DNA of 52,225 bases, taken from assembly GCA_016186995.1 (NCBI GenBank), contig JACPKQ010000007.1, forward strand, positions 1-52,225, in the 5' to 3' direction. Both the position numbers and the translations under genes were made by a program. Shown here piece after piece: positions 40,864-46,354 of this stretch. The notes under the pieces were generated by a model. It saw only the letters and a program-made list of their open reading frames with translations. It was not told where the DNA came from and ran no database searches. This DNA is from Deltaproteobacteria bacterium. GTDB lineage: Bacteria > Bdellovibrionota > JACOXK01. Within the stretch, counting starts at the first letter, position 1, and every line of letters starts with the position of its first letter.

Positions 40864-41283
40864 ATGAAGAAAAAAGTTTTACTTATGGTATTACTTGCGG
40901 TTGTTATAGGTGTGGGGTGTTCTAAAAAAAGTGTTGGTACTTCTGACGCTGGTTTAAGAACCATTCATTTTGATTTTGATAAATATGATATTCGAAGTGA
41001 TGCTCGCGAAGTTATGGCTCAAAACGCTGAATATTTGAAAACTAATTCTAGTGTTGAAATTCAAATTGAGGGGCACTGCGATGAAAGAGGAAGTACAGAA
41101 TACAACATGGCTTTGGGACAAAGACGTGCTAATGCTGCTAAACAATATCTTGTTGATTTAGGGGTTGATGGAAGTCGAGTGACAACAATCAGCTATGGTG
41201 AAGAGCGTCCTGTGGATAGTGATTCAACACCTTCTGCTTGGTCTAAGAATAGAAGAGCAGAATTTCGAGTGACATCTAAGTAA
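40864..41283 (+). CDS. pal: Peptidoglycan-associated lipoprotein (OmpA-like)
   Basis: Outer-membrane lipoprotein that binds peptidoglycan and works with the Tol complex in envelope constriction. A lipoprotein signal ends at a Cys near residue 19 (VVIGVGCSKK). The OmpA-type domain has IHFDFDKYDIRSDA, the peptidoglycan-binding IEGHCDERGSTEYNMALGQR and KNRRAEFRV. At 139 residues it has almost no linker between lipid anchor and domain. It is followed by a terminator, a DUF4398-like lipoprotein and a CpoB/YbgF homologue; tolQRAB are not in the window. Confidence 0.92.
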   Translation: MKKKVLLMVLLAVVIGVGCSKKSVGTSDAGLRTIHFDFDKYDIRSDAREVMAQNAEYLKTNSSVEIQIEGHCDERGSTEYNMALGQRRANAAKQYLVDLGVDGSRVTTISYGEERPVDSDSTPSAWSKNRRAEFRVTSK

Positions 41284-41289
41284 CCACTC

Positions 41290-41640
41290 ATGGTTCCGTC
41301 ATTGCGAACTAAGCGAAACAATCTCAGCCTCTCTTCTTTTTTGAAGAGAGGCTTTTTTATTTTTATTTTGTTTTTCTTATCCTGTGCAGGAACAGCGCCT
41401 AAAAAAGAATATGCTCAGGCTAAGATGGCTATTTTAGGCGCTGAAGAGGCGGGGGCATCTCTCTACGCACCCCTTTCTTATAATAAAGCGCAAGATTATT
41501 TAAAACGAAGTGAGCGTGCTTTTTATGAAAGACTTTATTCTGAAGCACGTAGACTTGCTCTTTTGGCAAAAGAAAAAGCTGAAGAAGCCGAAGAAAGTGC
41601 ACTTCAAAAGAAAAAGACCCAACCCGATGCAACGGAATAA
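41290..41640 (+). CDS. DUF4398-like lipoprotein
   Basis: A small lipoprotein of unknown function. The signal sequence KRGFFIFILFFLSC ends at a lipobox Cys. The mature part contains GAEEAGASLYAPLSYNKA and repeated Ala-rich helix, which fits the DUF4398 pattern. The start is uncertain. ATG 41290 places 17 polar residues before the signal and lies in a dispersed-repeat sequence. TTG 41341 would give a textbook signal peptide but sits in the loop of the intrinsic terminator at 41327-41352 and has no ribosome binding site. Its end overlaps the next gene by 14 nt, so the two lipoproteins are probably coupled. Confidence 0.7.
   Translation: MVPSLRTKRNNLSLSSFLKRGFFIFILFFLSCAGTAPKKEYAQAKMAILGAEEAGASLYAPLSYNKAQDYLKRSERAFYERLYSEARRLALLAKEKAEEAEESALQKKKTQPDATE
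41292..41325. repeat. Dispersed-repeat remnant (CGTCATTGCGA type)
   Basis: TTCCGTCATTGCGAAC...GCGAAACAATCTC resembles the widespread intergenic repeat with the words CGTCATTGCGAG and GAAGCAATCTC. It lies right after the pal stop and merges with the terminator stem. The similarity is recalled, not searched. Confidence 0.45.
41327..41358 (+). terminator. Intrinsic terminator after pal
   Basis: GCCTCTCTTC (41327-41336) and GAAGAGAGGC (41343-41352) form a perfect 10-bp stem with a T6 loop, followed by six Ts (41353-41358) and further T-rich sequence. It is the strongest terminator in the window and lies inside the 5' part of the following reading frame. Confidence 0.85.
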
Positions 41641-42349
41641 ATTTTTACATTTGTTTTTTGCTTTGATTGTTGGTTTGTTGCTCTCAGCTTGTAGTTTAAC
41701 CGAAGAAGATCGCGAGAACGTTGATCTTATGAGAGAAGAAGTTGATAAGGTTATGCAGGAAAGAGCAGAATATAAAGCAGAAGTGGATGAGCTTAAAAAT
41801 CAGATTCTTAATCTTGAATCAGAGCTTGAAAATAAATCTAAATCTGAGGAAGAAACACGAGAAAAATTAGAAGTAGCATTGCAATCTTTAGAAGAAAGAA
41901 TTTTAGAGCTTGAAAAAAATGTTCGAGATATTTCTTTGGGAAAAGCCCTTAAGGACGAGAAAAAAGTAACTTCTTCAAGTTTATATTATAAGGGTAAGAA
42001 GGAGTATTCAGAAAAAAACTTTCGGCAAGCATTACTTACTTTTAAATTATTAGTTGAAAAGTATCCTCAAAGTAGTCTTCTTGATGATGCACATTATTGG
42101 ATTGGCGAAACTTATTTCGAGCTTAAAGATTATGAAAAGGCGATTGTTGAATTTGATCTTATCAGAAAGAATTTTCCAAAAGGTACTGCTATTGCAGGGG
42201 CTCTTTATAAAGAAGCTCTTTCTTTTAAAGAATTGGGAAAAAAAGAAGAAGCGCAAATTCTTTTAAAAACTGTGGTTGAACAATTTCCTGATTCTCCAAC
42301 GGCAACCAAAGCAAAAAAAGAACTTTCAGTAGAGCTGCTGGTCAGGTGA
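41627..42349 (+). CDS. ybgF: Tol-Pal associated TPR protein (CpoB/YbgF-like lipoprotein)
   Basis: Probable envelope protein that coordinates the Tol-Pal system with peptidoglycan synthesis. The start ATG 41627 gives a lipoprotein signal (FFALIVGLLLSACS). A long coiled coil (about residues 25-100, rich in Glu and Lys) follows, then TPR-type repeats with LYYKGKKEYSEKNFRQALLT, DDAHYWIGETYFELKDYEKA and KEALSFKELGKKEEAQ. This coiled-coil plus TPR layout is that of YbgF; E. coli CpoB has a cleavable signal instead of a lipobox. It has 240 residues and overlaps the DUF4398-like gene. Much of the spacer to the next gene is T-rich. Confidence 0.82.
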   Translation: MQRNKFLHLFFALIVGLLLSACSLTEEDRENVDLMREEVDKVMQERAEYKAEVDELKNQILNLESELENKSKSEEETREKLEVALQSLEERILELEKNVRDISLGKALKDEKKVTSSSLYYKGKKEYSEKNFRQALLTFKLLVEKYPQSSLLDDAHYWIGETYFELKDYEKAIVEFDLIRKNFPKGTAIAGALYKEALSFKELGKKEEAQILLKTVVEQFPDSPTATKAKKELSVELLVR

Positions 42350-42380
42350 CAAAAATAGTGATTTTTGTCATGATGAGTAT

Positions 42381-44090
42381 ATGAAATTCCGTTATTTCAT
42401 CATGCTTTTTTTTGTTCTTTCTACGCTTCAATGTACAAAAAAGAGCTTTCCTTGGAAATTAGTTACTGCCCAAGAAAAAAGTTTACCCAAATTCAATATT
42501 TATTTTACTGGAAGTATTCAGGGTGAACTTGAACCTTGTGGGTGAATATCTAATCCACTTGGCGGGCTCGCTAGGAAAGGACAATTTTTTGAGGGTATCC
42601 GCAATCAAAGAGATTTTGTCTTCTTTGATAGTGGGGATCTTCTTTCTAAATCTGCTCAAGTTACAGGGTTTTTGAAAGATCAGTACAAACTTCAAGCTGA
42701 GGTATTAGTACAAGGAATAAGTTCGCTTCCTCTCACAGTAATGACTATTGGGGAAAAAGATTTTACTTTTGGAAAAGATTTTTTAATTGAACAAGTGAAG
42801 AAATTCCATCTTCCTGTTGTGAGTAGCAATGTTTATGAAAAGGGCACAAGAAAACTTCTTTTTGAAGATCACAAGATTGTGACTGTACGGGGAAAAAGAT
42901 TGGGCATTTTTGCTTTAACAGAACCTTTTCACTTTAAATTTCTTGCAACTCAAGAAGTCGATGTAACAGATCCCATTCCCATAGCTCAAAAAATGATTAA
43001 AAAACTTGTGAATGACAAGGTGGATTATATTATTGTTCTTTCAGATTTAGGAATTTTGAGAGAAACCAAATTAGCAAGTCAAGTTGAAGGTATTGATATT
43101 ATTATAGGGGGCCATTCAGAAGATGTTTTACAACAACCACGAATGATTAAAAATACTTTGATTGTTCAAGCAGGCTATCAAGGGCATTATATTGGGAATC
43201 TTACTGTTTTTTCAGAAGTACAGAAAAAGATTTATAATCATGAGTTAGTAGCTTTAGACACACATTTTGAACCTGGAACACCTTTTATGAGAAAACTTGT
43301 TTCTGATTTTAAAGAAAAGCTTGAAAAACACGAAACTGTTCCAGAAAAAACACAAAAGAATGGAAAAGTTCCTCAAGGTTATGAAACATCTTCTTACTGT
43401 GTTCAATGTCATACAAAGCAAACAGAGGTGTGGAAAAATTCACACCACTCAACAGCTTTTCTTTCTCTTTATGTAAGAAATCAGCATTTTAATAATGAGT
43501 GTATTTCATGCCATACAGTTGGATTCCATAAAGAGGGTGGTTTTACAGATGTACGTAAAGCAGTTGTAAAAAATGATGGAACCTTTTTGGATCTTTCTCA
43601 GTTAGCCGATACCATGATTCTTGAAACACAAGAATTGAATCAAGATTTAAAAAAACTTTTGAAAAAAAACATTGCTCAGTTTAAAGAGGCTATCAAAGCA
43701 ACTCAAGAAAAAGATAAAAAAAGCCTTTATGAGGGGCAAATTTTTGCACTTCAGAAGATTGAAGAAACAAAGTCTTTAAAGGGAAGCATGCTTTCTTTTT
43801 ATGAAAACCCTGAAATTTACAATTTTTTAAGAAAGTTGTATATAAAAGAGCTTGATAAGACAAAGCTTGCCAAGAACTACTGGGGTGTTCAGTGTGAAAA
43901 TTGCCATGGAGGAAGAGCTGGGCATCCTTTTGAAAAAGGTGACTTTTCCAAAAAAGTTGGTACAAAGGCTTGTGCGACCTGTCATAACAAGGAAAATAGC
44001 CCCCGTTTTAATTTAGAAGAGTTTCATCGTGTTCAAGGAATCCACAAGTCGGGAAAATTTGCCTTTATCTGCGCCGAAGGCAAACCTTAA
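42381..44090 (+). CDS. Multihaem cytochrome c / phosphoesterase-like protein with in-frame UGA (probable selenoprotein)
   Basis: A frame of 569 codons including a TGA at 42543-42545. The N-terminus is a hydrophobic signal ending in a possible lipobox (STLQC). Next comes a domain resembling the metallophosphoesterase part of 5'-nucleotidases: GSIQGELEPCG-[UGA]-ISNPLGGLARK, DSGDL, then GEKD and GGHSE where the family has GNHE and GGHSH, so the metal site is altered. The C-terminal half has four haem-binding CxxCH motifs: CVQCH, CISCH, CENCH and CATCH. In relatives as I recall them, the UGA position is Cys (PCGC). A SECIS-like hairpin follows the UGA. A periplasmic or surface electron-transfer role is inferred. 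The 3' end overlaps tsaD by 62 nt. Confidence 0.75.
42543..42575 (+). promoter_or_regulatory. UGA codon plus SECIS-like hairpin
   Basis: After the UGA (42543-42545) and a 12-nt gap, CUUGGCG (42558-42564) pairs with CGCUAGG (42569-42575) over 7 bp, two of them G-U, closing the tetraloop GGCU. The loop starts 19 nt after the UGA and begins with G. Both fit the published general model of bacterial SECIS elements (loop about 16-37 nt from the UGA, G among the first loop bases). Confidence 0.6.
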
Positions 44091-45075
44091 CATTTTAGGT
44101 ATTGAGTCGTCTTGTGACGATGCAGCGGCTTCTATTTATTCATCAGGTCAAAAAAAACTTCTTTCAAATGTTGTTTCTTCACAGATTAAAGTGCACAATC
44201 CATTTGGTGGAGTTGTGCCAGAGCTTGCTTCAAGAGAACATTTTAAAAATATCCCTCTTGTGGTTGATCAAGCACTACAGGAAGCAGGCCTTGATGTGGA
44301 TGATATTGATCTTATTTCAGTGACTCATGCTCCAGGACTTATTGGAAGTCTTTTAGTGGGACTTGCTTATGCAAAGGGTTTAGCTTTTTCAAAAAATATT
44401 CCTTTTATAGGGGTTCATCATATTGAAGCGCACATGTTGGCCATTCATATCGAGAAAAAAATTCCCTTTCCTTATGTGGCGCTTGTTGTTTCTGGGGGGC
44501 ATACACATCTTTATGTGATTCATGATGTTGGAGAGTATGAACTTGTAGGAGCAACGTGTGATGACGCAGCTGGAGAAGTTTTTGATAAAGTTGGAAAAAT
44601 TTTTAATTTAGGATTTCCAGGTGGGCCTGTGATCGATCGACTTTCTAAAAAAGGAAATCCAAAAGCTATTTCCTTTCCAAGAGCTTTTATTAAAGATGAA
44701 CAGTTTCGATTTAGTTTTAGTGGGTTAAAGACAGCTGTTTCTTATTATATTCAGAAAAACCCACATTATAATATCAATGATGTTTTGGCTTCATTTCAAG
44801 AAGCAGTTGTGGACGTACTTGTTCACAAAGCACTGAAACTAGCTTTAAAAAGAAACATATCAAACGTTGTTGTATGTGGTGGGGTTGCTTGTAATTCAAG
44901 GTTGCGTGAAAGGATGGACGAGGTTCTTTCTGTTCATAAAATAAACTTTTCAGTACCGACTCCAAAGCTGTGTGCCGATAATGCTGCTATGATAGCTTAC
45001 ACGGGTTGGGAGTTGTGGAAAAAGGGGAGGCAAGATAATTTCGATTTGAATGCTTTCCCAAATAAAGTACTATAG
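44029..45075 (+). CDS. tsaD: tRNA threonylcarbamoyladenosine transferase TsaD
   Basis: Transfers threonylcarbamoyl to A37 of ANN-decoding tRNAs, with TsaB and TsaE. The ASKHA-fold motifs are ILGIESSCDDAAASIY, the metal-binding HHIEAHMLAIH, VSGGHTHLYVIHDVGEYELV and the end CADNAAMIAYTGWE. The start is uncertain. GTG 44029 gives about 20 residues before ILGIE, TTG 44059 about ten; both lie within the cytochrome gene and neither has a strong ribosome binding site, so coupling is likely. Core length is normal (about 340). Confidence 0.95.
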   Translation: MFKESTSRENLPLSAPKANLNILGIESSCDDAAASIYSSGQKKLLSNVVSSQIKVHNPFGGVVPELASREHFKNIPLVVDQALQEAGLDVDDIDLISVTHAPGLIGSLLVGLAYAKGLAFSKNIPFIGVHHIEAHMLAIHIEKKIPFPYVALVVSGGHTHLYVIHDVGEYELVGATCDDAAGEVFDKVGKIFNLGFPGGPVIDRLSKKGNPKAISFPRAFIKDEQFRFSFSGLKTAVSYYIQKNPHYNINDVLASFQEAVVDVLVHKALKLALKRNISNVVVCGGVACNSRLRERMDEVLSVHKINFSVPTPKLCADNAAMIAYTGWELWKKGRQDNFDLNAFPNKVL

Positions 45076-45081
45076 CCAATC

Positions 45082-45606
45082 ATGAGCTTATTTGAGAATT
45101 TCTACAAAAAGCTAAAATCAGTTTATTATCAGTTTGTAAGGTTGCGTGCTACGCCTGAAGAGGTGAGTCGTGGTTTGGCTTTGGGTGTTTTTGTGGGAAT
45201 GACACCCACTTATGGTTTTCAGGTTGTTTTAGCTATACTTCTTGCTGTTGCTCTTAAAGAAAACAAACTTGCAGCCGTTTTAGGTGTATTTGTAACAAAT
45301 CCTTTTACAGCCATTCCTATTTATTATTTTAATTATCGAATAGGGCGCTTGTTTGTTCCTTCTTTAACAGAAAGGTTGACGACTCTAGAGAGTCTTTCTG
45401 TTAAAGAACAGTTATCGCATCTTGCCAATGCAAGTGTTGATTTTCTCCTTGTGTGGCTTTTAGGATGTTTGATTGTAGGTCTTATATCCGCACTCTTAAC
45501 CTATTGGATTTCAAAACCCATCTACATTTATTTAAGAGATAAAAAAAGAATTTTCTCCGAAAAGAGGGCAATGAAAGATGAGTCATCCGAAATATCTTCT
45601 GAATAG
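45082..45606 (+). CDS. DUF2062 family membrane protein
   Basis: A 174-residue inner-membrane protein of unknown function. The family signature is RGLALGVFVGMTPTYGFQ followed by NPFTAIPIYYFNYRIGRLF. Hydrophobic segments lie near residues 45-65, 70-90 and 130-155. It sits 6 nt after tsaD, and its end overlaps rsmA by 29 nt. Confidence 0.85.
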   Translation: MSLFENFYKKLKSVYYQFVRLRATPEEVSRGLALGVFVGMTPTYGFQVVLAILLAVALKENKLAAVLGVFVTNPFTAIPIYYFNYRIGRLFVPSLTERLTTLESLSVKEQLSHLANASVDFLLVWLLGCLIVGLISALLTYWISKPIYIYLRDKKRIFSEKRAMKDESSEISSE

Positions 45607-46354
45607 TTTAGGGCTCCGCCCAAGAAAAAGTTTTGGACAAAACTTTCTCATTCAGAAAAACATTATTCAAAAAACAGTCAAAGAAGGTCATCTTTCCAAA
45701 GATGACTTTATTTTAGAAATAGGCCCTGGATTAGGTGCCTTAACAGAAGAGCTGTTAAAACACGATATTTCTTACATAGGCGTTGAGAAAGACAAAAAAC
45801 TTTATGAATATTTAAAAAATAGATTTACTGGAAATAAAACCCAATTTATGTGTGAGGATTTTTTAGATTTTGTATTGCCCACTTCAAAAATAACAGTTTT
45901 TGGTAATATTCCTTATAATATTACCTCTCCTATTTTAGAAAAACTTGCTAGAAATAAAGAAAGGCTTAAAGAAGTTATTCTTATGATTCCTAAAGATATA
46001 GCTTTAAAGCTTAAGGCGAAAGAAGGAAAACTTTATGGACCTCTTTCTTTGCTTGTTCAGTTACACTTTGAGGTGCAAAACTTATTTGAAGTGGGAGCTG
46101 CCAATTTTTATCCTCAACCTAAGATTCAATCACAGGTTCTAAAACTAACACCCCGTAAAAGTTTATTAGATCCTGCCCAAGAAGAGATCTTTTTTAAAAT
46201 TGTAAGGCATGCCTTCCAAAAAAGACGCAAAATGCTTAAGGCTATTTTCCCTGAAGTTCATGATTGGGTGACAATAGGGCTTAATCCCCAATTAAGACCC
46301 GAAAACGTGACATTGGAAGAATTCATAAAATGGTCAAAAATAGGGCTATTTTGA
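45578..46354 (+). CDS. rsmA: 16S rRNA dimethyladenosine transferase RsmA/KsgA
   Basis: Dimethylates two adjacent adenines near the 3' end of 16S rRNA using SAM. Motifs are KSFGQNFLIQ, the SAM-binding LEIGPGLGALTEELL, GVEKDKKLYEYL, and the catalytic FGNIPYNITSPI. The length of 258 residues is usual. ATG 45578 lies inside the preceding gene. Confidence 0.95.
   Translation: MSHPKYLLNSLGLRPRKSFGQNFLIQKNIIQKTVKEGHLSKDDFILEIGPGLGALTEELLKHDISYIGVEKDKKLYEYLKNRFTGNKTQFMCEDFLDFVLPTSKITVFGNIPYNITSPILEKLARNKERLKEVILMIPKDIALKLKAKEGKLYGPLSLLVQLHFEVQNLFEVGAANFYPQPKIQSQVLKLTPRKSLLDPAQEEIFFKIVRHAFQKRRKMLKAIFPEVHDWVTIGLNPQLRPENVTLEEFIKWSKIGLF

Follow-up and report, generated by a model that had tools for sequence, protein, structure and literature searches.

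An in-frame UGA and its homologues

Can the single in-frame TGA of an otherwise continuous bacterial gene be read as selenocysteine (Sec), and what kind of protein would then result? The gene lies in a window of 52,225 nucleotides, by which we mean the whole stretch of DNA that was analysed. Its frame on the forward strand runs from an ATG at 42381-42383 to a TAA at 44088-44090, and the TGA at 42543-42545 is the only stop inside it, as an earlier note made from the sequence alone had described. With the UGA taken as Sec (U55), the product has 569 amino acids and contains the parts that this note had listed, namely an export signal, a phosphoesterase-like domain and four CxxCH motifs, with EPCGU at residues 51 to 55 (Table 1). 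The four CxxCH motifs, a Cytochrome_C554 match (E 2.8e-8) and an export signal recognised by eye mark the product as a multihaem c-type cytochrome, and all four motifs are retained in nearly all full-length relatives. A single-sequence structure prediction of the protein reached a mean pLDDT of only 33 and was discarded. A general code change at TGA was rejected, as the earlier note had argued, because TGA is the normal stop of 12 of the 40 window frames of at least 150 codons.

Table 1. Features of the selenoprotein gene and its conserved neighbours, in window coordinates
Feature	Position	Strand	Evidence
pal, conserved neighbour	40864..41283	+	TIGR02802, 141.5 bits; synteny
ybgF/cpoB-like, upstream conserved neighbour (longest frame; start position provisional)	41510..42349	+	TIGR02795, 98.1 bits; synteny
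UshA-like PCGU selenoprotein gene (predicted)	42381..44090	+	NF041198, 288 bits; 42% identical read-through product in G001, UGA at same codon
N-terminal export signal, probably lipoprotein signal (FVLSTLQC, Cys18)	42381..42434	+	Sequence, by eye; lipoboxes clearer in relatives (IIGC, AILGC, VVQGC, LISC)
Degenerate UshA/SoxB-type metallophosphatase domain	42486..43211	+	Profile and sequence matches; DxH and GNH residues lost
Predicted UGA codon for selenocysteine (E-P-C-G-U)	42543..42545	+	UGA in 6 genes including the window's, Cys in 34
SECIS-type hairpin, 7-bp stem, loop GGCU	42558..42575	+	Six-gene synonymous null, P 0.0005; fold -11.0 kcal/mol
Haem motif 1, CVQCH	43398..43412	+	Sequence; Cytochrome_C554 region, E 2.8e-8
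Haem motif 2, CISCH	43500..43514	+	Sequence
Haem motif 3, CENCH	43893..43907	+	Sequence; Cytochrome_C7 region
Haem motif 4, CATCH	43971..43985	+	Sequence
tsaD, downstream conserved neighbour (longest frame)	44029..45075	+	TIGR03723, 413 bits; synteny

The read-through protein belongs to a known family. It scores 288 bits against NCBIfam NF041198, 'UshA-like (seleno)protein' (curated cut-off 275 bits), and carries the PCG[U/C]/CxU motif of that family as EPCGU. The match extends without a break across the UGA codon (profile positions 16-266), so that homology is found on both sides of it, and a genome-level search added two stretches over the haem part (profile positions 346-455 and 462-517). 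Nothing essential differs from the family, whose best-scoring member found in the phylum is the Cys form of genome G010 at 518 bits. The family appears in the 2008 Global Ocean Sampling study as 'COG0737, UshA-like, CxU' with 76 sequences (PMC2398784), and it was relisted as selenoproteins in a 2022 review (PMC9312934) and as NF041198 in a 2026 review (PMC13188914). Since it has been catalogued since 2008, the window gene is a new example rather than a new family, and its novelty is lower than the earlier note implied. The literature searched contained no functional study of the family, and what the gene adds is a well-supported case to a catalogued, functionally uncharacterised selenoprotein family. 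Two other families are distinct from it: NF049981 (UshA-like (seleno)protein family 2), which has a related domain and is likewise listed as a selenoprotein family, has the motif CxxU rather than CxU (PMC13188914) and gives 40 bits where 140 are required, while ExtKL (NF040886), another multihaem c-type cytochrome selenoprotein family, gives 15.6 bits against a cut-off of 250.

The earlier note had expected Cys in relatives (PCGC), with the UGA forming a C-x-U pair, and had proposed an alignment of homologues as a check. This expectation proved right. At the UGA column, six genes including the window's have UGA (genomes G000, the window's own, G001, G002, G004, G005 and G006), in each case at the fourth letter of PCGU, and all 34 other homologues examined have Cys. 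The Cys two residues upstream is invariant, so that all 40 members read C-x-(U/C). Family searches covered 59 and 369 genomes, and in both the best-scoring members with one internal TGA were confined to the window's own class; a related-locus search of genome contigs returned only two distant loci.

If the UGA were instead a true stop, the gene would be a pseudogene, or translation would restart downstream and yield a cytochrome without its N-terminal signal. Other frames of the window do end with UGA, and here the frame after the codon is open from a TTG at 42672. We consider this very improbable, since UGA stands at exactly the same codon in six genomes with homologous frames on both sides, Cys fills the column in every other homologue, and Sec machinery co-occurs with the UGA form. 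A restart product would also be without the export signal on which haem attachment depends, and the part after TTG 42672 alone scores 214 bits against NF041198, below the cut-off. Least probable of all is a sequencing or assembly error that turned a Cys codon into TGA, for although the genome is a draft and isolated in-frame stops do occur in the window, as another TGA in a GNAT-like gene at 285 illustrates, five further genomes have UGA at the same codon within diverged surrounding DNA, which excludes a read error in practice.

The TGA of the GNAT-like gene, by contrast, is unique. It lies at 285-287 and splits a frame at 75-1220 into 70 codons before and 310 after. Relatives of this gene have no stop at that place and carry Gly (G001), Asn or other residues, not Cys; the TGA therefore looks like a nonsense change or sequence error rather than a Sec codon.

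The downstream hairpin and the Sec machinery

A hairpin follows the UGA closely. Its arms (42558-42564 and 42569-42575) form 7 bp including two G-U pairs, its loop GGCU occupies 42565-42568, 19 nt after the UGA, and together with a 3-bp lower stem (42554-42556/42579-42581) it folds at -11.0 kcal/mol (z -1.88). A bacterial SECIS model specifies a loop of 3-9 nt, a stem of 4-16 bp, G in the first two loop positions, a spacing of 16-37 nt and a minimum free energy of at most -7.5 (PMC13188914). The hairpin agrees with all of these constraints, with a loop of 4 nt starting GG, a stem of 7 bp and a spacing of 19 nt. Folding against mononucleotide shuffles had too little power in most of the six genes, and the peptide PLGGLAR encoded here is conserved as protein; for both reasons the stem was compared with synonymous recodings that follow each gene's own codon usage. 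By this test the window gene alone gave P 0.13, whereas the six UGA genes together gave P 0.0005. The description of the hairpin in the earlier note (7 bp, GGCU, 19 nt, fit to the model) thus stands, but taken alone the hairpin is not significant and only suggestive; over six UGA genes the evidence for a SECIS element is strong. The contribution of G005 to the six-gene test is less clean, as its best stem lies nearer to the UGA than the model spacing. Stems at this position average -8.7 in the UGA genes and -5.2 in 33 Cys genes (Mann-Whitney P 0.0008, which is indicative only because the sequences are related). A count of stem covariation found no two-sided (compensatory) pair changes, since the encoded PLGGLAR is itself conserved.

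The genome of the window (1.68 Mb in 30 contigs, 93% complete) also encodes the machinery for Sec, for which the earlier note had proposed to look. Profile matches identified selB (342 bits), selA (448 bits, or 499 with its neighbour) and selD (346 bits), and the tRNA-Sec gene selC was found with Rfam RF01852 (69 bits, anticodon UCA in the loop CUUCAAA); ARAGORN did not report a tRNA-Sec in this genome. The selD gene (L018, G000:C15:9066-9998) has an in-frame UGA of its own within SQSSGUGAK, which we take to be the usual Sec position of SelD, and is itself a selenoprotein gene. All five other UGA genomes have tRNA-Sec, and each has selA or selB or both; selA was not found in G004 (83% complete) and selB was not found in G005 (90% complete).

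A UGA aligned with Cys, the presence of selA, selB, selC and selD, and a hairpin that conforms to the model are together the marks of a bacterial selenoprotein gene. With the six-gene SECIS signal and the family match, they bear out the Sec insertion that the earlier note had inferred. We therefore put the probability at about 0.96 that the UGA at 42543 is read as Sec and an exported four-haem protein is made, a decoding that appears as secure as sequence can make it. As we picture it, SelB carrying Sec-tRNA(UCA) would bind the hairpin just downstream of the UGA, and insertion of Sec would place a C-x-U pair in the first loop of a phosphoesterase-like domain, which would be exported in fusion with a four-haem cytochrome c domain.

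The phosphoesterase-like domain and its possible function

The N-terminal domain is homologous to those of UshA/5'-nucleotidase and SoxB, but differs in having lost DxH and GNH residues and gained the CGU/CGC loop, and a haem domain replaces the C-terminal nucleotidase domain. The two-metal site of UshA follows the pattern DxH ... GD ... GNH ... H ... GHx[HQ], with residue roles that we assigned by presumed equivalence to E. coli UshA. The window protein, set beside two canonical UshA-type paralogues from its own genome, departs from this pattern: DxH has become SIQ, GNH has become GEK and the later His is Asp, while the Asp of GD and the His of GH are kept. At the equivalents of D41, H43, N116, H117 and H217 it accordingly has S, Q, E, K and D, and the PCGU loop comes just after the former DxH. 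Among 40 aligned family members, nearly all have lost the DxH His and the GNH Asn, and not one of the 40 retains the catalytic His of GNH. The residues equivalent to Asp84 and His252 of E. coli UshA are often retained in the family, so that metal may still be bound. A C-terminal Cys is conserved in 31 of the 32 members that reach its position.

Because the residues of a two-metal phosphoesterase are lost, the Cys/Sec pair is most likely a redox or substrate-binding centre that would pass electrons to or from the c haems on the outer side of the cytoplasmic membrane, a function to which we give roughly even odds. The product is probably no nucleotidase but a selenol/thiol redox protein connected to its haems, and the lost metallophosphatase residues argue that the name 'UshA-like' misleads about function. 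With Sec accepted, the protein might still be an active metallohydrolase of the 5'-nucleotidase or SoxB type, with Sec/Cys aiding metal binding and the haems as an accessory. Matches to UshA, 5'-nucleotidases and SoxB (SoxB E 8.6e-27) and the several metal residues kept in many members speak for this, but it seems unlikely given the five replaced metal-site residues and the universal absence of the GNH His, and two paralogues of the canonical UshA type, their motifs intact (L071, L072), are present in the genome. Our fuller picture of the redox protein is tentative: a selenium-dependent redox enzyme with four haems, built on a dead phosphoesterase scaffold and encoded in an envelope locus conserved across the phylum, with a possible Tol-Pal link.

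Gene neighbourhood and exchange of Sec and Cys

The gene sits in the order pal - (a small gene, in some) - ybgF - UshA-like - tsaD - (a DUF2062-like gene, in some) - rsmA, which spans 40864-46354 in the window and is also seen at loci L076-L084. The order from pal to rsmA is kept in every examined genome of the class as far as the contig extends. It is also present in other families, in G010 (to tsaD) and G053, and the pal-ybgF-UshA-like-tsaD-rsmA arrangement recurs in distant members of the phylum, whether they have the Sec or the Cys form. The UshA-like gene has kept its chromosomal position while its codon changed between Sec and Cys.

Most relatives in the phylum use Cys, and the window gene is a well-supported Sec case among them. 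The more distant genomes G047 and G055 have selA and yet the Cys form. Nearer to the window gene, the homologue in G003 (L025, G003:C7) has TGT (Cys) in place of the UGA. This genome shares its family with four of the UGA genomes, and searches of it (92% complete) detected neither selA nor selB nor tRNA-Sec. The tree places G003 and the UGA genes together in a single group (support 91/83), and two label changes are needed. A single gain of Sec with reversal to Cys in G003 fits the missing machinery best, while two separate gains fit it less well; documented changes from Sec to Cys are rare (PMC13188914). We consider a Sec-to-Cys reversal with loss of the whole Sec trait in G003 probable. Natural Sec/Cys pairs are available at this one conserved chromosomal place, the pair with G003 among them, and would suit a direct test of what Sec adds.

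Two smaller observations concern the borders of the gene. Between the ybgF stop and the start codon of the selenoprotein gene lies a strong A/T-rich hairpin (42346-42371, 11-bp stem, z -3.6), possibly acting as a weak terminator or as a control element. At the other end, the longest tsaD frame opens before the selenoprotein gene has ended, and the two share 44029-44090. No ATG lies near the conserved tsaD start (ANLNILGIESS), and translation of tsaD must begin at the GTG at 44029 or at another unusual start.
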